Shown: one piece after another, positions 7,931 through 53,243 of the stretch
Layout of the letters: each line of letters opens with the position of its first letter
Numbering within the stretch: the first letter of the stretch is position 1
Assembly (NCBI GenBank): GCA_030637515.1
Contig: DAOWGM010000123.1
Span: forward strand, 1-64,000
Source: Bacteroidales bacterium
Lineage (GTDB): Bacteria > Bacteroidota > Bacteroidia > Bacteroidales > UBA12077
Direction of reading: 5' to 3'
DNA: 64,000 nt
Translations under genes and position numbers: made by a program
Notes under the pieces: generated by a model
Databases searched by the model: none
What the model was told of the DNA's origin: nothing
Seen by the model: the letters and a program-made list of their open reading frames with translations, nothing else

Positions 7931-7988
7931 CTCTTTATTTATATATTTACATTCAATAAATAAATTTTTATTGAACAAATTTGATACT

Positions 7989-8756
7989 ATGCTCAGCAAA
8001 AATAAAATTAAATTCATTAATTCCATTAAAAAAAAGAAATACAGGGAACTTTCTCAATCTTTTTTTGCCGAAGGTGAAAAACTTGTTGATGAATTACTTC
8101 TTTCTAAAATTCAAATTACTGATATTTTATCAACTTCAGATTGGTTAGATAAAAACAAACACATGCTATCATCTGATATTGAAATTACAGAAATAACAGA
8201 TGCTGAACTAAAAAAGATAAGTTCATTATCTACACCAAATAAGGTATTTGCAATTGCTAAGCAACCAGAACTAAGATACGAAAAGAATGAAATACAAAAT
8301 GATTTAAGTTTAATTCTTGATAACATTAATGATCCTGGAAATCTCGGAACTATAATTCGAATAGCTGATTGGTTTGGAATTAAGAATATTTTTTGTTCAA
8401 ACGAGAGTGTTGATACATACAATCCTAAAGTAGTTCAAGCCTCGATGGGTGCATTATACAGAGTAAAAGTACATTATGTTGATCTGGAAACGTTTTTACC
8501 ACAGTTCTCACTATCTGAGAACTTCAAAATATTTGGGACATTTCTGGAAGGAGAAAATATTTATAACGAAAAGCTATGCAGTAATGGGTTTATAATTATG
8601 GGAAGTGAATCACATGGCATATCTGAATATCTAAAACCTCATATTATTAAAAAGCTTTTTATTCCAAACTTTCCTGGTGATATTAAAACTTCAGAATCAC
8701 TTAACATTTCAGTTGCTACAGCTATTATTTGTTCGGAATTCAGAAGAAGAACTTAA
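7989..8756 (+). CDS. TrmH/SpoU-family RNA 2'-O-methyltransferase
   Basis: A 255-residue SPOUT methyltransferase. An N-terminal substrate-binding domain (about 1-90) precedes the knotted AdoMet domain with all three SpoU motifs: LDNINDPGNLGTIIRIADW, FIIMGSESHGIS and IPNFPGDIKTSESLNISVA. The family methylates 2'-OH of specific rRNA or tRNA nucleotides; the target (for example 23S G2251 as in RlmB, or a tRNA) cannot be assigned. I chose the ATG at 7989; an in-frame TTG at 7971 would extend it by six residues and crowd the divergent gene. It converges with porT, leaving 5 nt between stop codons. Confidence 0.88.
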   Translation: MLSKNKIKFINSIKKKKYRELSQSFFAEGEKLVDELLLSKIQITDILSTSDWLDKNKHMLSSDIEITEITDAELKKISSLSTPNKVFAIAKQPELRYEKNEIQNDLSLILDNINDPGNLGTIIRIADWFGIKNIFCSNESVDTYNPKVVQASMGALYRVKVHYVDLETFLPQFSLSENFKIFGTFLEGENIYNEKLCSNGFIIMGSESHGISEYLKPHIIKKLFIPNFPGDIKTSESLNISVATAIICSEFRRRT

Positions 8757-8761
8757 GATAT

Positions 8762-9472
8762 TTATTCAAAATGAAGTGAGATCATAAACATTCTGGAATT
8801 CAGTTTATCTATAGAATTTGCATATTGAGGAAAATCGTCAGCCGGATCAGAAGAAATAACATTTAATATACCAACTGAATATTTTATTTCTGTAGAAAAT
8901 TTAAAATATGCGAGGTAAAAATCCAGCCCAAATCCAAGCTCGTAATAAACATCAAAAGGTTTTAACTTAATATAAATTTCTTCATCTTCGTTAAACTCTT
9001 TATTTCGAGCCATATCATTCCTGATATTTATACCACCAATTACATATGGTCTCGTGTTTCCTATTCTTGTAGATTTATATTTAAATGTTAATGGTAAATC
9101 AATGAAAGTTGATTCTATTTTCATTTCAGAAACCACATTTTGATCATTGTCGTAGAATAAAATTTTTCTTTGCCCTAAAGAAATTCCCGGCAAGAATCTA
9201 AAATCGAGATGATCTGTAAGCCTAAGACTCGATACAATTCCTACGTGAAACCCTGGTACAAGATCATTAATCTCAGGATATAAAACCGCTGAATCGGCAC
9301 CAAAAGTATTCATTGTTGGTGTAAGCTTAAAATCCATTGTATTTACACCTATTGTAAAACCAAAATGAAGTTTTTTATTATCGACATTCTGATAATTTAA
9401 AACGATTTCTCTCTGAGCCGAAACTTTCAGAGAAATGAATACAATAAATAATATGGATAATATTTTTTTCAA
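8762..9472 (-). CDS. porT: Type IX secretion protein PorT-like outer-membrane barrel
   Basis: A 236-residue protein with a cleavable signal peptide (MKKILSILFIVFISLKVSAQ) and an eight-stranded-type barrel of the PorT family. The segment KKLHFGFTIGVNTMDFKL is the characteristic PorT start. PorT/SprT is an outer-membrane component required for type IX secretion and gliding in Bacteroidota. The order purL-menG-porT, with menG directly upstream, agrees with my recollection of menG/ubiE-porT adjacency in the phylum. A T9SS cargo with a C-terminal sorting domain is encoded at 18408-21290, supporting an active system. A generic PorT-like porin is the alternative. Confidence 0.75.
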   Translation of the reverse strand: MKKILSILFIVFISLKVSAQREIVLNYQNVDNKKLHFGFTIGVNTMDFKLTPTMNTFGADSAVLYPEINDLVPGFHVGIVSSLRLTDHLDFRFLPGISLGQRKILFYDNDQNVVSEMKIESTFIDLPLTFKYKSTRIGNTRPYVIGGINIRNDMARNKEFNEDEEIYIKLKPFDVYYELGFGLDFYLAYFKFSTEIKYSVGILNVISSDPADDFPQYANSIDKLNSRMFMISLHFE

Positions 9473-9534
9473 ATCAGCAATTTAGATTTACAAAACGATA
9501 ATTTGTTCAATATATTATTCTGCAATAATATCTT

Positions 9535-10257
9535 TTATTTTTCGGCACTATATATACTTGCAATTCCAAAACTCAATGGTATAAAACTACAATTTTTAAA
9601 TCCAACCTTTACAAGCTCCTTAATAAACAAATCTCTTTCGGGAAACTGTCGTACAGATTCGGGCAAATATGTATATGCTGCATTATCTTTCGATACTAGC
9701 TTACCTACTAAGGGTAATATACTTTTAAAATAGAAATTATAGACTTGTTTTACAGGAAAGGATTTTGGTTTGGAAAACTCAAGAATGGCAATTTTGCCAT
9801 TCAATTTCAAGACCCTATACATTTCAGATAATCCCTTATTCAGATTTTCATAATTTCTTACTCCAAAAGCAACAGTTACTCCATCGAAATAATCACTTTC
9901 GAATTCAATATTTTCCGAATCTCCTTTCTGAAGAGTAATTATATCTTCCAATTTCTTTTTCTTGATCTTTTCCTTACCAACACGGAGCATCTCTTCCGAG
10001 ATATCAATGCCAATTATTTTTTTTGGATTTAGTTTAAGTGCGGTAATTGCTAAATCGCCAGTACCGGATGCAACATCTAAAAGAATTGGATTTGAAGCAA
10101 TTCCGCTTAAGGTATTAATCGTTTTTCTTCTCCAAATCTTATCAATACCAAGAGATAGAAAGTGATTTAAAAAATCATATCGTCGGGCAATATTATTAAA
10201 CATTAAAGCTACCTGCTCCTTTTTACCCGACTTGTTATTTTTATATGGTGTTAACAT
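9535..10257 (-). CDS. menG: Demethylmenaquinone C-methyltransferase (MenG/UbiE)
   Basis: Catalyses the last methylation of menaquinone using S-adenosylmethionine. The 240-residue class I methyltransferase has the AdoMet motif LLDVASGTGDLAI and the UbiE signatures VTVAFGVRNYENLNKG and RVLKLNGKIAILEFSKP, ending with FGIASIYSAEK. The start ATG (10255-10257) shares one base with the purL stop codon in a TGATG arrangement, which argues for translational coupling; a TTG immediately upstream is the only alternative. As Bacteroidota use menaquinone and not ubiquinone, MenG is the sensible role. Confidence 0.9.
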   Translation of the reverse strand: MLTPYKNNKSGKKEQVALMFNNIARRYDFLNHFLSLGIDKIWRRKTINTLSGIASNPILLDVASGTGDLAITALKLNPKKIIGIDISEEMLRVGKEKIKKKKLEDIITLQKGDSENIEFESDYFDGVTVAFGVRNYENLNKGLSEMYRVLKLNGKIAILEFSKPKSFPVKQVYNFYFKSILPLVGKLVSKDNAAYTYLPESVRQFPERDLFIKELVKVGFKNCSFIPLSFGIASIYSAEK

Positions 10258-12479
10258 CAATCTTCTTTCAGATATTTTTCCAATGCAGTGTCATACATCT
10301 TTTTAATATCACCAACAAAACCGTATGAATTATCGTCAATTCTAAGTTCTGATTTAGTAACATGACCCAATGCTGAAAATGGAACTTTGGATTCTATCAT
10401 ATAATCAATAAAATGATCTTCGTTTGAAGGAGAAACCGAAACAACAACTCTACTTTGTGCTTCTCCAAATAAGAATGCATCTTTTCGAACTTCAGCATCT
10501 GGAGTAACATCAAAACCAAAGCCTTTAATCATTGCTGATTCAACAATAGTTGTAAATAAACCTCCGTCAGCAACATCGTGCGCTGAAAGAATCAGGCTCT
10601 TCTTAATTAAGCTTTTTACAGCTTCTTGTACAGCATGTTCTTCTTCTAAATCGAAATGCGGTACCGGTGATTCTTCAATTTTATGTATGTAATTTAGATA
10701 TTCTGAAGAGTTTATATCGTTTCTTGATTTTCCTATTAAATAAATCATATCGCCTTTATTTTTAAAGGCAATACTCATTTGATCGTTTTTATTTTCAATT
10801 AATCCAATCATTCCAATTGTTGGAGTTGGGTTAATTGGTTCCGTTTTTCCATTAACCATCATTTGATTATAGAAACTTACATTTCCTCCTGTAACAGGAG
10901 TGTTAAATTTCTTACATGCATGACTCATCCCTTTTATAGCTCCAACAAATTGCCAGAAAGCTTCAGGATTATATGGATTACCAAAATTTAAACAGTTCGT
11001 TATTGCTAATGGAACACCACCCGAACAAACAATGTTTCTTGCTGCTTCTGAAACTGCAATAGTTGTTCCTATTTCAGGATCAGCTTTTACATATCGTGAG
11101 TTACAATCAACTGTCATAGCTATTGCACGATTTGTTCCTTTTATATTGTAAATACCGGCATCAGAAGGGAAATTTGTTGTCATATTTCCTGTTCCAACCA
11201 TGGTATCGTATTGCTCAATTACCCATTTTTTAGATGCAATATTCGGACTTTGAAGTAATTCCATCGCTGTTTCGCGATAATCTTCAGGCTCTGTAACTGA
11301 ATCTATTTTAAACTTTTTAAATTCTTTGTAATAAGCAGGTTCTTTATATTCGCGTTCATAAATAGGAGCTCCACCACCTAAAACTAAAGTTGATGCAGGA
11401 ACTTCAGCAACCAACTCATTATTCATATAAAAGTAAAGTTTATCTTCCTTGATTACCTCTCCAATAATTTTGCAATTTAAATCCCACTTATCAAAAATCC
11501 CTTCAACAACACTTTCTTTTCCTTTCTCAACAACTACCAACATTCTTTCTTGTGATTCTGATAAAAGAATTTCCCATCCTTGCATTCCTTGTTGACGTAA
11601 TGGAACTTTATCTAAGTCAATTTTCATTCCGTGAGCACCTTTTTCTGACATTTCTGATGTTGAACAGATAATTCCAGCTGCACCCATATCCTGCATACCA
11701 ACTACAGCTCCAGTACTATTTAATTCCAAAGTTGCTTCCATTAAAAGTTTTTCCATAAACGGATCTCCAACCTGAACTGAAGGTAAATCTTCAGATGAAT
11801 TTTCGGTTAAATCAGCTGATGCAAAAGTAGCTCCGTGAATTCCATCTTTACCTGTTGACGAACCAACAATATAAACCGGATTACCAACACCTAAAGCAAT
11901 AGCTGAAATGGTGTCATTTTTTTCCATAATACCAACCGACATAGCATTTATTAATGGATTAGTATTGTAACACTTGTCGAACATTAATTCGCCACCCAAT
12001 ACCGGAATTCCAAATGCATTTCCGTAATCACCAATTCCTTTTACAGCTCCTTTTAAATGCCATTTTGTATGATCAAGACTAATATCACCAAAACGTAACG
12101 AGTTTAATTGAGCTACCGGACGAGCACCCATTGTAAAAATATCACGGTTAATACCACCAACACCTGTTGCTGCACCCTGATAAGGTTCTACTGCAGAAGG
12201 ATGATTATGTGATTCAATTTTAAATGCACAAGCTAATCCACCACCAATATCAACTAAACCAGCATTTTCCTGACCAGCTTCAACTAATAATTGCTTACCG
12301 GTTCGTGGTAATGTCTTTAACCACTTTATAGAATTTTTATAAGATGCGTGTTCCGACCACATTACAGAATAAATACTTAACTCTGTAAAGTTAGGTGTAC
12401 GACCTAAATTTTCTTTTATTTTATCAAACTCTTCAGGTAGTAAACCCAATTGTTCAGCAGTTTTAACAGTAACTTCCAT
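10257..12479 (-). CDS. purL: Phosphoribosylformylglycinamidine synthase, small PurL type
   Basis: Performs the ATP-dependent FGAR to FGAM step of purine synthesis. At 740 residues it is the small PurL seen in Bacillus, which lacks the glutaminase and N-terminal PurS-like domains and must work with separate PurQ and PurS. AIRS-type domains are visible: SEHASYKNSIKWLK near residue 45, KIESHNHPSAVEPYQGAATG, GINRDIFTMGARPVA, and second-half motifs VTGGNVSFYNQ and SAHDVADGGLF. It heads a leftward operon with menG and porT. Many Bacteroidales carry the fused ~1200-residue form, so the small form is a point of note. purQ and purS are not in this window. Confidence 0.93.
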   Translation of the reverse strand: MEVTVKTAEQLGLLPEEFDKIKENLGRTPNFTELSIYSVMWSEHASYKNSIKWLKTLPRTGKQLLVEAGQENAGLVDIGGGLACAFKIESHNHPSAVEPYQGAATGVGGINRDIFTMGARPVAQLNSLRFGDISLDHTKWHLKGAVKGIGDYGNAFGIPVLGGELMFDKCYNTNPLINAMSVGIMEKNDTISAIALGVGNPVYIVGSSTGKDGIHGATFASADLTENSSEDLPSVQVGDPFMEKLLMEATLELNSTGAVVGMQDMGAAGIICSTSEMSEKGAHGMKIDLDKVPLRQQGMQGWEILLSESQERMLVVVEKGKESVVEGIFDKWDLNCKIIGEVIKEDKLYFYMNNELVAEVPASTLVLGGGAPIYEREYKEPAYYKEFKKFKIDSVTEPEDYRETAMELLQSPNIASKKWVIEQYDTMVGTGNMTTNFPSDAGIYNIKGTNRAIAMTVDCNSRYVKADPEIGTTIAVSEAARNIVCSGGVPLAITNCLNFGNPYNPEAFWQFVGAIKGMSHACKKFNTPVTGGNVSFYNQMMVNGKTEPINPTPTIGMIGLIENKNDQMSIAFKNKGDMIYLIGKSRNDINSSEYLNYIHKIEESPVPHFDLEEEHAVQEAVKSLIKKSLILSAHDVADGGLFTTIVESAMIKGFGFDVTPDAEVRKDAFLFGEAQSRVVVSVSPSNEDHFIDYMIESKVPFSALGHVTKSELRIDDNSYGFVGDIKKMYDTALEKYLKED

Positions 12480-14796: not shown

Positions 14797-14812
14797 CTTT
14801 CTTACAATACTT

Positions 14813-14873
14813 AGATTCCGGATCTACGCGATGCTTCGTCCGGAACTTTCTCATGACCGGAGGGAGTAATGAC
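14813..14873 (-). repeat. Intergenic hairpin repeat, long variant
   Basis: A 61-nt copy read leftward from GTCATTACTCCCTCCG to GGAATCT. It shares about 33 nt with the copy at 17862-17911, including TGAGAAAGTTC, with three differences in that stretch. It lies 17 nt from the GC-rich variant in the opposite orientation. Confidence 0.65.
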
Positions 14874-14901
14874 AATACACTTTTATTATGGATTCAACAA
14901 T

Positions 14902-16659
14902 CTAAAATCGACTGATATATCCGAAATGTATTTTTGCTGACTGTATTTCAAAAGGATTATCGAACTGTTTTCCTAAAGCATAACTTAAAGAAAAAATACC
15001 TGCCCGAGTATCAAAATCAAGTCCAATTCCAAATCCCCACGGAAAATCTTCGGTTACATCTTGAACTACATTTTTATAATAATATGCGCCATTCCAAAAA
15101 GCATAAAATGCTGAATTTTGTTCAAACAAATACTTAATTTCAACTTTTTGCAATGAATATATAGAAGCAAAAAATATGCTTTCGTCAAATCCGCGTAAGG
15201 ATTTTGCTCCCCCAAATCGGTAGAGTTCATTTTCGTAAAAAATAGCTTCTTTATTATTATCTGCAAGCTGATCCAAATACCGAGTTACATTTCCAAAATG
15301 AAATACAAAATTCTTATATATAGGAAAGTACAAGTCAAAATCAATACCAGCTTCTACTTCAAGTGTTTTATTATCAGCATTTAAACTATCGGTTAATTCA
15401 TTTGAAGTACTGCTTTTCTTAATACCAGTTCCACCAAATAAATTCACCACAATTCCTTTTCTCGGATTATATCTGTAATCCAGATCATTTAAATAATATG
15501 AAGCTCCAAAAATATTCGATGTAACATCGGCATAATTCATCGAAGTAAGTGTCACATTATCATCACCAATTTTCGATGAATTTTTATACCGATAATATGC
15601 CTTTATATATTCATCATAATCTAAAAACAATCGCAAACCAGTACCGGCACTTAAGGAAAGATATGTAGAATCCTTTTTATACAATCCAAAATCCGCATCA
15701 AGACCAAGGTTTGTTTTGAACAAATATGGATACATAAAACCAAGATCAAGCTTTTGTGTTGATGATTCCTGCTTCTCCCAATTCAGGAATATCTCCTCTC
15801 CTTTTCCAAATGGATTTACCAAATTTAAATTCAGTTCTCCGGTTATAAGCAATTTACCTGTCTCCTTCTCCCGATTATTATCGGGATCAGGGAGGAAACC
15901 AATAATTCCATTAAACATATTAGCTTTTTTATTTTGAAGGTAGAGATAAAGATCCACACTTTCGTCTCGGAATTCAATTTCTGCAGGCTTTATTTCCGAT
16001 AAAAATCTTAAATCATTAATCTTTTTTGATATCGAGTTTATTTTTTCTTGATTAAACGCAATTCCCTTTTCAATTTGTAATGTTCTTTTCAAATAATTAG
16101 GAGATATTTTAGCTTCACCCTTAATGATTATGCTATCGATTGAATAAAAATCTCCTTTCTCAACTAAAAGTAAAGTATTGAATAATGAATCCTGAATTTC
16201 AAATTCCTTTGGAATTACTTTAACAAAAGGATAACCTGAGTTTTCGTAATAAGATAATATTTCATTCATCAGATTCTGCCACTCGTATAGATTAACAATA
16301 TCTGACCTCTTCCGTTTAACCTTAATTGCTTCTTTCAAATCAGACTCCAGATAAGATAAATCAAGCTCATTCCAGTAATATCTTCTCCCAGCAAATAATT
16401 TTACCTCAACTGTAAGTGAATCAAAACTTAGACTATCTATAGATGCTGCCAAAAATCCTTCATTTTGCAATTCGTCAATCAATTGCTGCAGATGATTCTC
16501 AATCTGAACACTATCTCCACGATAATTTTGATACGAATTTAAAATTTGCTTAGGCGCATTAGAAGTATGATCAATATGCAATCTATATTCTTGCCCTGAT
16601 ACATATTGGCAGAAAAAAATATGAATAAGAAAAATGAATATGTAAGCAATTCTTTTCAA
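14902..16659 (-). CDS. Omp85 (BamA/surface antigen D15) family outer-membrane protein
   Basis: A 585-residue protein with a signal peptide (MKRIAYIFIFLIHIFFCQYV, about 22 residues). Two or three POTRA-like units occupy about 25-225 (YENSGYPFVKV and IIIKGEAKISPNYLKRTLQI), then a 16-stranded-type barrel with the lid motif region ELYRFGGAKSLRGFDESIF and a terminal strand FGYISRF. It is shorter than BamA (about 750-880) and probably a TamA/ShlB-like variant. It stands alone between repeat-rich intergenic DNA, so its partner is unknown. It is distinct from the Omp85 lipoprotein at 5576-7930. Confidence 0.8.
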   Translation of the reverse strand: MKRIAYIFIFLIHIFFCQYVSGQEYRLHIDHTSNAPKQILNSYQNYRGDSVQIENHLQQLIDELQNEGFLAASIDSLSFDSLTVEVKLFAGRRYYWNELDLSYLESDLKEAIKVKRKRSDIVNLYEWQNLMNEILSYYENSGYPFVKVIPKEFEIQDSLFNTLLLVEKGDFYSIDSIIIKGEAKISPNYLKRTLQIEKGIAFNQEKINSISKKINDLRFLSEIKPAEIEFRDESVDLYLYLQNKKANMFNGIIGFLPDPDNNREKETGKLLITGELNLNLVNPFGKGEEIFLNWEKQESSTQKLDLGFMYPYLFKTNLGLDADFGLYKKDSTYLSLSAGTGLRLFLDYDEYIKAYYRYKNSSKIGDDNVTLTSMNYADVTSNIFGASYYLNDLDYRYNPRKGIVVNLFGGTGIKKSSTSNELTDSLNADNKTLEVEAGIDFDLYFPIYKNFVFHFGNVTRYLDQLADNNKEAIFYENELYRFGGAKSLRGFDESIFFASIYSLQKVEIKYLFEQNSAFYAFWNGAYYYKNVVQDVTEDFPWGFGIGLDFDTRAGIFSLSYALGKQFDNPFEIQSAKIHFGYISRF

Positions 16660-16836
16660 GCTTCTGATTTTAATAACAAATATATACAGATAACTTGAAA
16701 ATAGATTGTTTGGTATGTCGATATCTGAGAGTAATGAGTTAATGCAATCTATATTTTACCTAAAAAAGCCACGTTTTCCAAGCTGCAAGCTTCATGCTTT
16801 TATTTCGGATTTTAATTCTATCAAAAAAACATATTT

Positions 16837-16890
16837 AGATTCTTCACGCTGTTCAGAACGTTTATCTTCATGACTTAAAGGAATAATGAC
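16837..16890 (-). repeat. Intergenic hairpin repeat, long variant
   Basis: A 54-nt copy read leftward from GTCATTATTCCTTTAAG to AAGAATCT, sharing the ends and the internal TCATGA block with the copy at 14813-14873. The interior has diverged more than the ends. Confidence 0.55.
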
Positions 16891-17016
16891 AATCTAAATA
16901 AGGCTTCTGTAAACAAAAAAGTTAAAAGGTCAGTTTACAGTTACTAATTCAATTTGCATATATTACTGACTCCTGTCTTCTGAATTCGTAATCCTGAATA
17001 AAAAAATCATACTTCG

Positions 17017-17042
17017 AGATCCTTCGATAAACTCAGGATGAC
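17017..17042 (-). repeat. Intergenic hairpin repeat, short variant
   Basis: A 26-nt copy read leftward (GTCATCCTGAG ... CGAAGGATCT). It matches 24 of 26 positions of the copy at 60048-60073. The two differences fall on opposite sides of the same stem pair (C-G here, T-A there), so pairing is preserved. Confidence 0.7.
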
Positions 17043-17070
17043 TTCTTTTTAAATATAATTTAGTGTATTC

Positions 17071-17817
17071 TTAATTATTAAAAAAACCCTGATCTTTTAG
17101 CACTTTTAAGAACACATTTGAAAAATACAGGTTATCTGCTTTTTTGTATCTATTATCAGTAAAAATCTGTGCTAAAGTTTCCTTCTGGTTTTCTTCAAGT
17201 AAATCTTTAGTAGATTCCAACGATTCCTTTTCAGCATAAATACGATTAATATCTTCAGAAGAATAATCTTTGTAGGTTTCGTAATGCACAACGCCTTCCA
17301 ATGGCAAACGATCTGTTAATCCCGGATTTTCATCAGGGTAACCAACAACAACAGTTGTAATTGGAATTACTCCTTTAGGCAGATTTAGAATTTCAATAAT
17401 TTTATCGGCTGTATAAGTTGTTGTTCCTAAATAACAGATTCCCATTCCTTTATCTTCAGCAGCAAGGCTGCAATTTTGTGCAACAAGCATTGCATCAATT
17501 ACTGCATTAGTAAACCATAAAAAATTATCGTAACCCGGTTCAGCATTTCGTTGTTCGCACCATTTACTAAATCGATTAATATCGGCACAAAAAGTTAATA
17601 CAACAGGAGCTTGAGTTGCCATTGGCTGATTAAAATGTGTTGGAGCAAGTTTCTTTTTCATTTCCTCGTCGCGGGTAACAATAATAGAATAAACCTGCAT
17701 ATTACCACTAGTTGAAGCCCGTGTTCCAGCTTCTAAGATTTCCTGCAAATCTTTTTCAGAAACAGGTGTATTTTTATATTTACGTATCGATTTGTGATTT
17801 AAAATTGTATCTAACAT
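17071..17817 (-). CDS. NADPH-dependent FMN nitroreductase family oxidoreductase
   Basis: A 248-residue flavoprotein of the NfsA/FRP branch. The N-terminal FMN phosphate motif HKSIRKYKNTPVSEKDL and the TRASTSGNMQVYSI segment are typical, as is GMGICYLGTT near residue 130 and VVGYPDENPGLTDRLPLE near 170. The family reduces quinones, nitroaromatics or free flavin with NAD(P)H. The C-terminal 50 residues (YKDYSSEDINRIYAEKES) form the dimer-wrapping extension of this branch. The flanks are repeat-rich and there is no operon partner; the substrate is unknown. Confidence 0.85.
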   Translation of the reverse strand: MLDTILNHKSIRKYKNTPVSEKDLQEILEAGTRASTSGNMQVYSIIVTRDEEMKKKLAPTHFNQPMATQAPVVLTFCADINRFSKWCEQRNAEPGYDNFLWFTNAVIDAMLVAQNCSLAAEDKGMGICYLGTTTYTADKIIEILNLPKGVIPITTVVVGYPDENPGLTDRLPLEGVVHYETYKDYSSEDINRIYAEKESLESTKDLLEENQKETLAQIFTDNRYKKADNLYFSNVFLKVLKDQGFFNN

Positions 17818-50474: not shown

Positions 50475-52220
50475 ATGAGTAAAGAAATAAAATTCAGTCT
50501 GGTTTATCGTGACATGTGGCAATCTTCGGGAAAATATGTTCCTAGGGTTGATCAACTTAAAAAAATAGCTCCTGTAATAATTGATATAGGTTGCTTTTCG
50601 AGAATTGAAACTAACGGTGGTGCTTTTGAGCAGGTAAATTTGTTATATGGAGAAAATCCTAATAAAGCTGTAAGAGAATGGACAAAGCCATTTAACGATG
50701 CAGGAATTCAAACTCATATGCTGGAAAGAGCACTTAACGGAATCAGAATGTTTCCTGTTCCTGCTGATGTTAGAAAATTAATGTACAAAGTAAAAAAAGC
50801 ACAAGGAGTTGATATTGCCCGTTCTTTTTGTGGTTTAAATGATCATAGAAACCTAGAACTTTCAATTAAATATGCAAAAGAAGCTGGAATGATTTCACAG
50901 GCTACATTAAGCATAACTCATTCCAACATACATACTGTAGAATATTTTATGGGCATTGTTGACAAAGCAGTTGAGTATGGAACCGATGAAATTTGCCTCA
51001 AAGATATGGCTGGTATTGGTCGTCCAGTAACTCTAGGGAAGCTTGTAGGCGAAATCAAAAGAAAATATCCACATATTTTAGTTCAGTATCACGGTCATTC
51101 AGGTCCTGGGTTCTCTGTTGCTTCCATGTTGGAAGTTGCAAAAGCAGGAGTTGATTATCTTGATGTTGCAATGGAACCTTTATCATGGGGAATGGTACAT
51201 CCTGATATAATTACAGTTCAAGCGATGCTTAAAGATGCTGGATTTAATGTTCCCGAAATAAACATGAAGGCGTATATGAAAGCCAGGGCTTTAAATCAAG
51301 AATTTATGGATGATTTTTTAGGATACTTTATCAATCCTAAAAACAGATACATGTCGTCATTACTTGTACAGGCTGGGCTTCCAGGCGGAATGATGGGAAG
51401 TATGATGGCAGATTTAAAAGGTGTACATAAAGGACTTAATCAAACTCTTGAAGCTAACGGAAAAGAAAAACTCACAGAAGATGATTTACTTGTTAAATTA
51501 TTTGATGAAGTAATTGATATTTGGCCCAAGTTAGGCAATCCTCCTCTTGTAACTCCATTTAGTCAGTATGTTAAAAACATTGCATTATTAAACGTAATGC
51601 AGGATATTCAGGATAAAGAGAAATTTGCAATTATCGACAATAATGCCTGGGATATGATAATTGGCAAAGCTGGGAAATTGCCAGGAAAACTGGATCCTCA
51701 AATTATTGAAATAGCAGAAAATCAGGGAAAAGAATTTTACACAGGCGTACCTCAAGATAATTATCCAGATGAGTTAGATAGATTTCGTAAAGAAATGGAA
51801 GAAAACGATTGGGATACAGGTGAAGATGATGAGGAATTATTTGAGTTTGCCATGCACGAGCGCCAGTATCGCGATTTTAAATCAGGATTAGCAAAACAAC
51901 GTTTTCTGGAAGAAATACAGAAATTAAAAGAAGAAGCCAAACTCCCTAAATCAAGAGAAGGACATGTTAAAGTAGATCCAACAAAAAAAGATATTCCTTC
52001 ACCTTATATGGGGAGAATCTTCTATAATCTCAATTACTTTATTGAAGAACAAGCTGTTGAACAAGGCAATCAGGTTAAAAAAGGTCAAAGAATTTGCTAT
52101 ATTGAGAACAACTATACTTATGATGAGATCGTTTCCGATTACGACGGAGAAGTTGATGAAATCTTTTTTAAGCATGGAGATATGGTTTCTAAAGGAGATG
52201 TAATTGTGAGATTAAAATAG
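50475..52220 (+). CDS. Carboxyltransferase-type (PycB/OadA-like) protein lacking a biotin lysine
   Basis: A 581-residue protein with an HMGL-like TIM barrel (about 5-270), a conserved-carboxylase domain (about 280-470) and a C-terminal biotinyl-like domain (about 505-581). It keeps RDMWQS (residues 12-17), the carboxylated-lysine motif CLKDMAG (K176) and the metal HxH (H206, H208). It departs from PycB/OadA where it matters: the catalytic Thr of HxHxT is Gly210, and the biotin motif AMKM is replaced by ENNYT (544-548), so no biotin or lipoyl Lys exists. It may therefore be a regulatory or neofunctionalised decarboxylase-fold protein and not a biotin enzyme. It lies upstream of the B12-regulator gene by 141 nt, with no carboxylase partner nearby. 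Confidence 0.8.
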   Translation: MSKEIKFSLVYRDMWQSSGKYVPRVDQLKKIAPVIIDIGCFSRIETNGGAFEQVNLLYGENPNKAVREWTKPFNDAGIQTHMLERALNGIRMFPVPADVRKLMYKVKKAQGVDIARSFCGLNDHRNLELSIKYAKEAGMISQATLSITHSNIHTVEYFMGIVDKAVEYGTDEICLKDMAGIGRPVTLGKLVGEIKRKYPHILVQYHGHSGPGFSVASMLEVAKAGVDYLDVAMEPLSWGMVHPDIITVQAMLKDAGFNVPEINMKAYMKARALNQEFMDDFLGYFINPKNRYMSSLLVQAGLPGGMMGSMMADLKGVHKGLNQTLEANGKEKLTEDDLLVKLFDEVIDIWPKLGNPPLVTPFSQYVKNIALLNVMQDIQDKEKFAIIDNNAWDMIIGKAGKLPGKLDPQIIEIAENQGKEFYTGVPQDNYPDELDRFRKEMEENDWDTGEDDEELFEFAMHERQYRDFKSGLAKQRFLEEIQKLKEEAKLPKSREGHVKVDPTKKDIPSPYMGRIFYNLNYFIEEQAVEQGNQVKKGQRICYIENNYTYDEIVSDYDGEVDEIFFKHGDMVSKGDVIVRLK

Positions 52221-52361: not shown

Positions 52362-53243
52362 ATGGCAAGTTATTCTATCAAGGAGCTGGAGAATTTATCT
52401 GGAATAAAAGCGCATACAATTCGAATTTGGGAAAAACGCTACAGTATAATTAAACCAGCACGAACAGATACTAACATAAGGCACTACTGCGATAGTGACT
52501 TAAAGAGATTATTAAATATAGCAATATTAAATCGCGTTGGAATACGCATATCGGATATTTCAAAATTATCGGATTCTGAAATAACAGATAAAGTAATGAG
52601 TGTATCCGCTGATTCAACAAGTTCGGAAAGCAATATTGAGAGTTTAATTATTGCTATGGTTGAAATGGATGAATACAAATTTGACAAAATTCTATCACGC
52701 TATATTATGCACGAAGGATTTGAGAATACTGTTGTTAAGGTGATTTTCCCTTTCTTTGAGAAAATTGGTCTATTGTGGCAAACAGGTTCAATTAATCCAG
52801 CACATGAACATTTTGTATCAAATCTTTTTAGGCAAAAGTTAATGGTTGCTATTGATAATATTGTGGTTTCTAACAGTCAGACTGCAAGGAAATTTGTAAT
52901 GTTTTTACCGGAAGGTGAATATCATGAATTAGCTTTACTGTTTTACAATTATTTGATTAAGAAATCAGGGCAATTAGTATATTACTTAGGGAGTTCAATG
53001 CCTTTAAATGATGTTTTAGAAACAAGCAAAATGGTTAATCCTGATTATTTATTTACTTCGCTAACGTCATCACTTAACATGAATGAAGTTTCTATTTACT
53101 TAAAGAAACTTTCTGAGAGCTTCCCATTTCAGAAAATATATGTTACAGGATTACAAATAAAAGAGAATAATATTGATTTACCTTCAAATGTTCTAAAAGT
53201 GTCATCCCCTCTACATTTCAAGAAGGTGCTAAAAAATCAATAA
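52362..53243 (+). CDS. CarH-like MerR regulator with cobalamin-binding domain
   Basis: A 293-residue MerR-type protein. The N-terminal HTH (YSIKELENLSGIKAHTIRIW, residues 4-23) is followed by a B12-binding four-helix cap (about 90-165) and a Rossmann domain (about 175-290). The W-x9-EH motif of light-sensing CarH is intact (W139, E149, H150), and the ExHxxG-like E186, H188, A191 supplies the axial-ligand histidine with the final Gly replaced by Ala. AdoCbl-bound CarH tetramers repress and light disassembles them. The gene precedes an ECF sigma gene by 296 nt, an arrangement linked to carotenoid genes in other Bacteroidota; no crt genes are visible here. Confidence 0.8.
   Translation: MASYSIKELENLSGIKAHTIRIWEKRYSIIKPARTDTNIRHYCDSDLKRLLNIAILNRVGIRISDISKLSDSEITDKVMSVSADSTSSESNIESLIIAMVEMDEYKFDKILSRYIMHEGFENTVVKVIFPFFEKIGLLWQTGSINPAHEHFVSNLFRQKLMVAIDNIVVSNSQTARKFVMFLPEGEYHELALLFYNYLIKKSGQLVYYLGSSMPLNDVLETSKMVNPDYLFTSLTSSLNMNEVSIYLKKLSESFPFQKIYVTGLQIKENNIDLPSNVLKVSSPLHFKKVLKNQ

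Follow-up and report, generated by a model that had tools for sequence, protein, structure and literature searches.

The window studied here is a stretch of 64,000 nucleotides (positions 1-64,000, forward strand) of contig DAOWGM010000123.1 from a Bacteroidales bacterium (UBA12077; assembly GCA_030637515.1). One of its genes encodes a protein of the OadA/PycB/5S carboxyltransferase (CT) type that lacks the biotin-bearing lysine (Table 1). Pfam gave the domain order HMGL-like (residues 130-234), PYC_OADA (344-505), and Biotin_lipoyl (506-580), and the nearest NCBIfam models, pyruvate carboxylase subunit B and OadA, each scored well under the cut-off. The original prediction had described this open reading frame with Lys176 in CLKDMAG, HGH at 206-208, Gly210 and, in place of the biotin motif, ENNYT at 544-548. 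All of these stood as described, and its advice not to annotate the product as a self-biotinylated carboxylase subunit holds. When ENNYT is set by eye against AMKMEN, Tyr547 falls on the lysine position.

Table 1. Features of the lysine-less carboxyltransferase gene in the window (rows, sequences of the family alignment; dN, nonsynonymous divergence)
Feature	Position	Strand	Basis or conservation
Lysine-less OadA/PycB/5S-type carboxyltransferase subunit gene	50475..52220	+	Open reading frame, 581 residues, ATG start
CT TIM barrel, residues ~1-300	50475..51374	+	AlphaFold model m7947447c4f95 against 2nx9 and 1rqh; limits by eye
R12-D13-x-x-Q16 motif	50508..50522	+	127/127 rows
K176, equivalent of the carbamylated lysine (presumed role)	51000..51002	+	127/127 rows
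H206-G-H208, metal site (presumed role)	51090..51098	+	H206 127/127; H208 117/127, Gln in 10 AMKT rows
G210 (HxHxG), not the catalytic Thr	51102..51104	+	Gly 123/127; Thr in 4 lysine-less rows
PYC_OADA domain	51504..51989	+	
T360, equivalent of catalytic Thr882 (R. etli) / Thr908 (human numbering)	51552..51554	+	Alignment
Variable linker, residues 486-503	51930..51983	+	dN 0.44-0.99 against six close relatives
Carrier-fold (barrel-sandwich) domain without biotin lysine, residues 504-581	51984..52217	+	
ENNYT 544-548 replacing the AMKM region; Y547 at the lysine position	52104..52118	+	Codons read directly

Loss of the biotin lysine among relatives

Relatives were collected by a scan of genome contigs, and the best 80 of 594 confirmed stretches (61-91% identity) were compared. 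The biotin lysine was absent in 69 of these, all without an (A/S)MK motif, while 11 carried AMKM or SMKM in a longer C-terminus. The named organisms among the 80 were all Bacteroidota, and two entries were titled only "uncultured bacterium". Within the order, a family member at E <= 1e-100 was present in 132 of 393 sampled genomes; in a sample of 395 genomes of the phylum, the best score outside the order was 143 bits, and 25 outside-order proteins read PGGMLSN, as against PGGMMGS in the family. Typing covered 108 genes of the order search and left out 25 open frames of 721-780 residues and some fragments. It gave 58 lysine-less genes (including L161 and L162, which have no carrier domain), 46 genes with an AMKT-type biotin motif, and four long forms; L213, typed as AMKT through a chance motif, was moved by hand to the lysine-less group.

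Across both domains dN, taken from six close relatives, was low, and dN/dS was 0.027-0.048 in three domain estimates at a dS of 2 to 3, which is near saturation and was computable for few comparisons only. Neither frameshifts nor relaxed constraint were seen among the six. Judged from these sequences, the loss of the lysine is real, clade-wide, and under selection, and the domain that lost it is conserved and retains a biotin-carrier fold. A missing motif in a domain with that fold might also be taken for decay of, or a sequencing error in, a biotinylated OadA, an outcome the original prediction had allowed for. We regard this as extremely improbable: the frame is open, the low dN extends over both domains, and the motif is likewise absent in most of the closest relatives and in 58 of the 108 typed genes.

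Active-site residues and position in the tree

The alignment consisted of 127 family rows (65 lysine-less, 2 truncated, 14 long, and 46 AMKT) and 3 canonical outgroup rows. Arg12, Asp13, Gln16, Arg85, Lys176, His206, Thr360, and Ser363 were identical in every family and outgroup row. His208 was kept in 117 family rows; the other ten were AMKT rows with Gln, so that 10 of the 46 biotin-bearing OadA-type proteins have Gln for the second histidine of the metal site. For the mapped CT residues other than Thr360 we assume the customary roles, including carbamylation of Lys176 and metal binding by HxH.

The original prediction took Gly210 to replace the threonine that shuttles the proton in pyruvate carboxylase. 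In a passage of PMC5895798, Thr882 of the R. etli enzyme is described as catalytically essential, the T882A change abolishing oxamate-induced oxaloacetate decarboxylation. In alignments to PDB chains, the residue matching Thr908 (human numbering) or Thr882 (R. etli) is Thr360, in the PLVTPxSQ motif (OadA fragment position 71 = human 908 = R. etli chain index 893, that is, 882 plus an inferred tag offset of 11). This numbering ruled out both Gly210 and Gly308 (PGGMM[G]S) as the catalytic position. At position 210, Gly occurred in 123 of the 127 family rows and Thr in 4 of the 65 lysine-less rows; at HxH+2, all 46 AMKT and all 14 long biotin-bearing rows had Gly, and the three outgroup rows had Thr. 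The change from HxHxT to HxHxG is thus borne out by the outgroup but is not tied to the loss of biotin. The original prediction was to be refuted by close relatives of the same clade with both AMKM and HxHxT, and half of this is seen: AMKM occurs in members that have Gly210, and HxHxT in four lysine-less members. By the alignment, Gly210 is an old trait common to biotin-bearing Na+-pump subunits, not a second lesion, and the mapped CT residues are intact despite the lost lysine.

The tree was built from the CT part of 130 rows, with the three outgroup rows (a fourth named locus, L108, gave no row). The 65 lysine-less, 2 truncated, and 14 long rows formed one clade, with a Shimodaira-Hasegawa approximate likelihood-ratio (SH-aLRT) support of 100, separate from the 46 AMKT rows, in line with the prediction of a loss conserved as one wide clade. 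A quick tree nested the long rows inside the lysine-less rows, and monophyly of the latter was not rejected (approximately unbiased test, p 0.467). One loss is the simplest reading of this tree; a re-gain of biotin in the long forms from within the lysine-less clade is possible.

The same residues bear on the earlier proposal of a biotin-free decarboxylase or lyase, or of a regulatory protein. This we find quite unlikely: none of the 67 lysine-less and truncated rows lacks Thr360, HxHxG occurs in biotin-bearing rows too, and a biotin carrier is part of the long forms, which belong to the same clade. The genome context given below also favours a separate biotin carrier.

Genome context and candidate partners

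For gene context, 80 genomes were chosen, complete ones being favoured: 40 with a lysine-less gene, 15 AMKT-only, 13 long-only, and 12 without a match at E 1e-100. All are drafts, in which the presence of each family was judged by profile matches; the lysine-less and AMKT-only genomes were typed from sequence, and the long-only ones by frame length except for G478 and G406, which were read. The C-domain of biotin carboxylase (PF02785) was not found in 43 of the 80, near-complete genomes included.

Genes of the AMKT type (EAMKTYN and similar) sit before an OadB gene, and an oad-type OadB adjoins in 15 of 15 AMKT-only genomes. An OadG gene lies ahead (PF04277 confirmed at L164, with similar small open reading frames at other loci). 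By gene context, the AMKT-type proteins are OadA of Na+ pumps.

The long forms share the CT domain and the mapped active-site residues with the window protein but end in a weakly BT-like region (PF21385, 18.6 bits, under the Pfam cut-off of 27) and an AMKM carrier. The long-form loci that were read have an MCC/PCC-type beta subunit, enoyl-CoA hydratase, acyl-CoA dehydrogenase, HMGL-like proteins, and CoA transferases nearby, whereas the window protein has neither that C-terminus nor such an operon. The beta subunit at L009 scored 713 bits to MCC beta and 732 to PCC beta. Clusters of the leucine-degradation type were seen at L009, L010, L011, L014, L015, L016, L017, L023, L025, L029, and L030. 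A biotin carboxylase query had no match in the 209 loci holding a family gene, but the enzyme is encoded elsewhere in 12 of the 13 long-only genomes, so the long form could be charged in trans. The CT-(BT-like)-carrier protein of the leucine-type clusters may stand in for the MCC alpha subunit, and these clusters could encode a 3-methylcrotonyl-CoA transcarboxylase.

Among the 40 lysine-less genomes, biotin carboxylase was present in 11, and the lysine-less protein was the sole PYC_OADA protein in 32; profile searches found neither biotin carboxylase nor another PYC_OADA protein in 24. Three near-complete genomes of these 24 (G413, G698, and G402) were also without OadB while keeping mmdA and a biotin carboxyl carrier protein (BCCP). 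Among the families covered by the searches, this leaves just two proteins, MmdA and the lysine-less one, to load and unload BCCP, which is the parts list of 12S, 1.3S, and 5S subunits. A cluster of mmdA, a short peptide, and BCCP without OadB occurs in G413, G761, and G402, the peptide having no hydrophobic segment of the kind present in the MmdC of the window's own genome; G698 has mmdA and BCCP with no peptide called. An epimerase-like gene adjoins mmdA in G413, G761, and G698 (TIGR03081 confirmed for G761).

The closest linkage was found in G483, where the order is lysine-less gene, mmdA, 66-residue peptide, and BCCP (LVLEAMKM); a profile search of this genome, 98% complete, gave no OadB match. 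Downstream of this cluster (L199), a 1455-residue Cas9-like protein (7959-12323) and a repeat array (~14800-17600) were noted by eye. The mmdA gene of Dysgonomonas sp. PH5-45 (L056) is on the same strand as the lysine-less gene, 5.5 kb downstream of it. G394, which holds a lysine-less gene, has split mmd loci, and part of PMC11575231 describes decarboxylase genes of Xylanibacter ruminicola as split over two loci.

The window's own genome has seven Biotin_lipoyl matches. Contig C45 holds an mmdA-mmdC-BCCP-oadB cluster, and C32 a 12S-like gene with BCCP and no oadB. The window protein differs from PycB of two-subunit pyruvate carboxylase (5ks8) in having no biotin lysine of its own, and a profile search found no biotin carboxylase in this genome. 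We dropped the idea that the organism lacks that enzyme, since all four congeners encode it and the assembly is 91% complete. On C74 (L195, 4903-8582, minus strand), accD and accA are consecutive with a canonical oadA (CILEAMKL), and accB and accC are missing there. The three genes may encode an acetyl-CoA carboxylase that draws on oxaloacetate; by coordinates, accA lies near a canonical PYC_OADA match in the congeners G673 and G735 too.

Proposed function and its alternatives

On balance, we favour the view that the window protein is a CT of the 5S/OadA/PycB type that lost its own biotin and uses the biotin of a separate small BCCP, with MmdA (12S) as its probable partner. The intact mapped CT residues, the conserved carrier-fold domain without lysine, and the conservation of both across the clade are established by sequence comparison. 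From the mmdA/BCCP clusters and the missing biotin carboxylase and OadB, we infer that biotin is supplied by a separate carrier.

Carboxybiotin on this BCCP would enter the CT barrel, where a metal held by Asp13, carbamylated Lys176, His206, and His208 would bind pyruvate or oxaloacetate. Thr360 would handle the proton as the carboxyl group moves between biotin and a 2-oxoacid, most likely pyruvate/oxaloacetate, and an MmdA-type 12S CoA carboxyltransferase would carry out the CoA-side half-reaction. The whole would form a soluble methylmalonyl-CoA:pyruvate-type transcarboxylase with MmdA as 12S and BCCP as 1.3S, for which the C45 cluster and the C32 pair are the candidate partners in the window's own genome.

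The likeness to transcarboxylase 5S of Propionibacterium shermanii (1rqb/1rqh; 26% identity) lies in the CT fold, the catalytic Lys, HxH, and Thr, and the absence of biotin on the protein itself. The window protein adds the lysine-less carrier-fold domain and scored 164.5 bits, below the NCBIfam cut-off of 827. This domain is probably an assembly part. In the lysine-less relatives without a carrier domain (L161, 4927-6597; L162, 4357-6036), the tail resembles the short peptides encoded in mmd clusters. Comparison of the L161 tail with the peptide of G483 gave a z of 6.9, with 0 of 500 shuffles as high, and the other 15 pairs gave z 0.2-4.7; this likeness weakly suggests the assembly role.

Several observations weigh against a transcarboxylase. 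The window gene stands alone beside def-like, divergent ruvX-like, and MerR/B12-binding genes; it lies on C9, unlinked to the 12S-like and 1.3S-like genes on C32 and C45. Among the loci read, only G483 has a lysine-less gene consecutive with mmdA and BCCP, and no operon partner is conserved across families. Among the matches listed, MmdA is common in Bacteroidales without a lysine-less gene, and an mmdA-peptide-BCCP cluster free of OadB occurs in the long-only genome G544, which has no lysine-less gene. Nor is a missing biotin carboxylase special to lysine-less genomes: it is not found in 8 of the 15 AMKT-only and 5 of the 12 family-free genomes, and OadB in 7 of the 13 long-only and 2 of the 12 family-free ones. 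As the four congeners carry a biotin carboxylase operon, its absence from the window's genome may be a gap. The MerR-type regulator with a B12-binding domain lies directly 3' of the gene (52362-53240, plus strand); in close relatives the genes at this place are different.

OadB is present in 35 of the 40 lysine-less genomes, the window's own included, and in at least 33 lies nearby on the MmdA contig, so a pump is possible. The protein could serve as an alternative alpha subunit and use the BCCP and OadB of methylmalonyl-CoA decarboxylase, so that a Na+-pumping oxaloacetate decarboxylase would have its carrier and pump in common with that enzyme. Its nearest biotin-bearing relatives are, by context, OadA of oadG-oadA-oadB operons; it has the domain order of OadA and shares PGGMMGS and HxHxG with the AMKT rows. 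It differs from OadA in having no biotin lysine and no oadB or oadG beside its gene. The TIGR01108 score (226.9 bits, cut-off 756.5) is a weak test here, as a biotin-bearing AMKT form is also under it (264.4). We nevertheless regard this pump as unlikely: no OadB was found in five of the 40 genomes (four of them 99-100% complete, the fifth being G483), and no oad-type OadB in any but G238 and G417, each of which also holds an AMKT copy.

As an extension of the transcarboxylase proposal, in Bacteroidales free of biotin carboxylase the lysine-less protein might load biotin with carboxyl groups taken from oxaloacetate. These would serve to carboxylate CoA esters, malonyl-CoA for fatty acid synthesis among the products, without an ATP-dependent biotin carboxylase. 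We put this forward tentatively and consider it rather doubtful. A full AccA (>400 bits) was found in 2 of the 40 lysine-less genomes. Nine distinct places have a fabD gene on the same strand at a distance of 328-1427 bp downstream, all nine over the NCBIfam cut-off; two of these places look near-identical, and the others may represent neighbouring lineages. Acetyl-CoA carboxylation from oxaloacetate, if true, would explain these fabD genes, which are suggestive only.

The best models would name this protein a pyruvate carboxylase or oxaloacetate decarboxylase subunit despite the absent biotin-bearing lysine. No lysine-less OadA or Bacteroidales transcarboxylase was described in the titles or abstract openings found, and a passage of PMC11575231 states that methylmalonyl-CoA in X. 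ruminicola is decarboxylated by a Na+ pump "rather than by transcarboxylase". Should the protein be the 5S subunit of a transcarboxylase, carboxyl groups would be recycled in many Bacteroidales by a step missing from models of propionate formation. The finding also raises the testable question of where malonyl-CoA comes from in Bacteroidales without biotin carboxylase.
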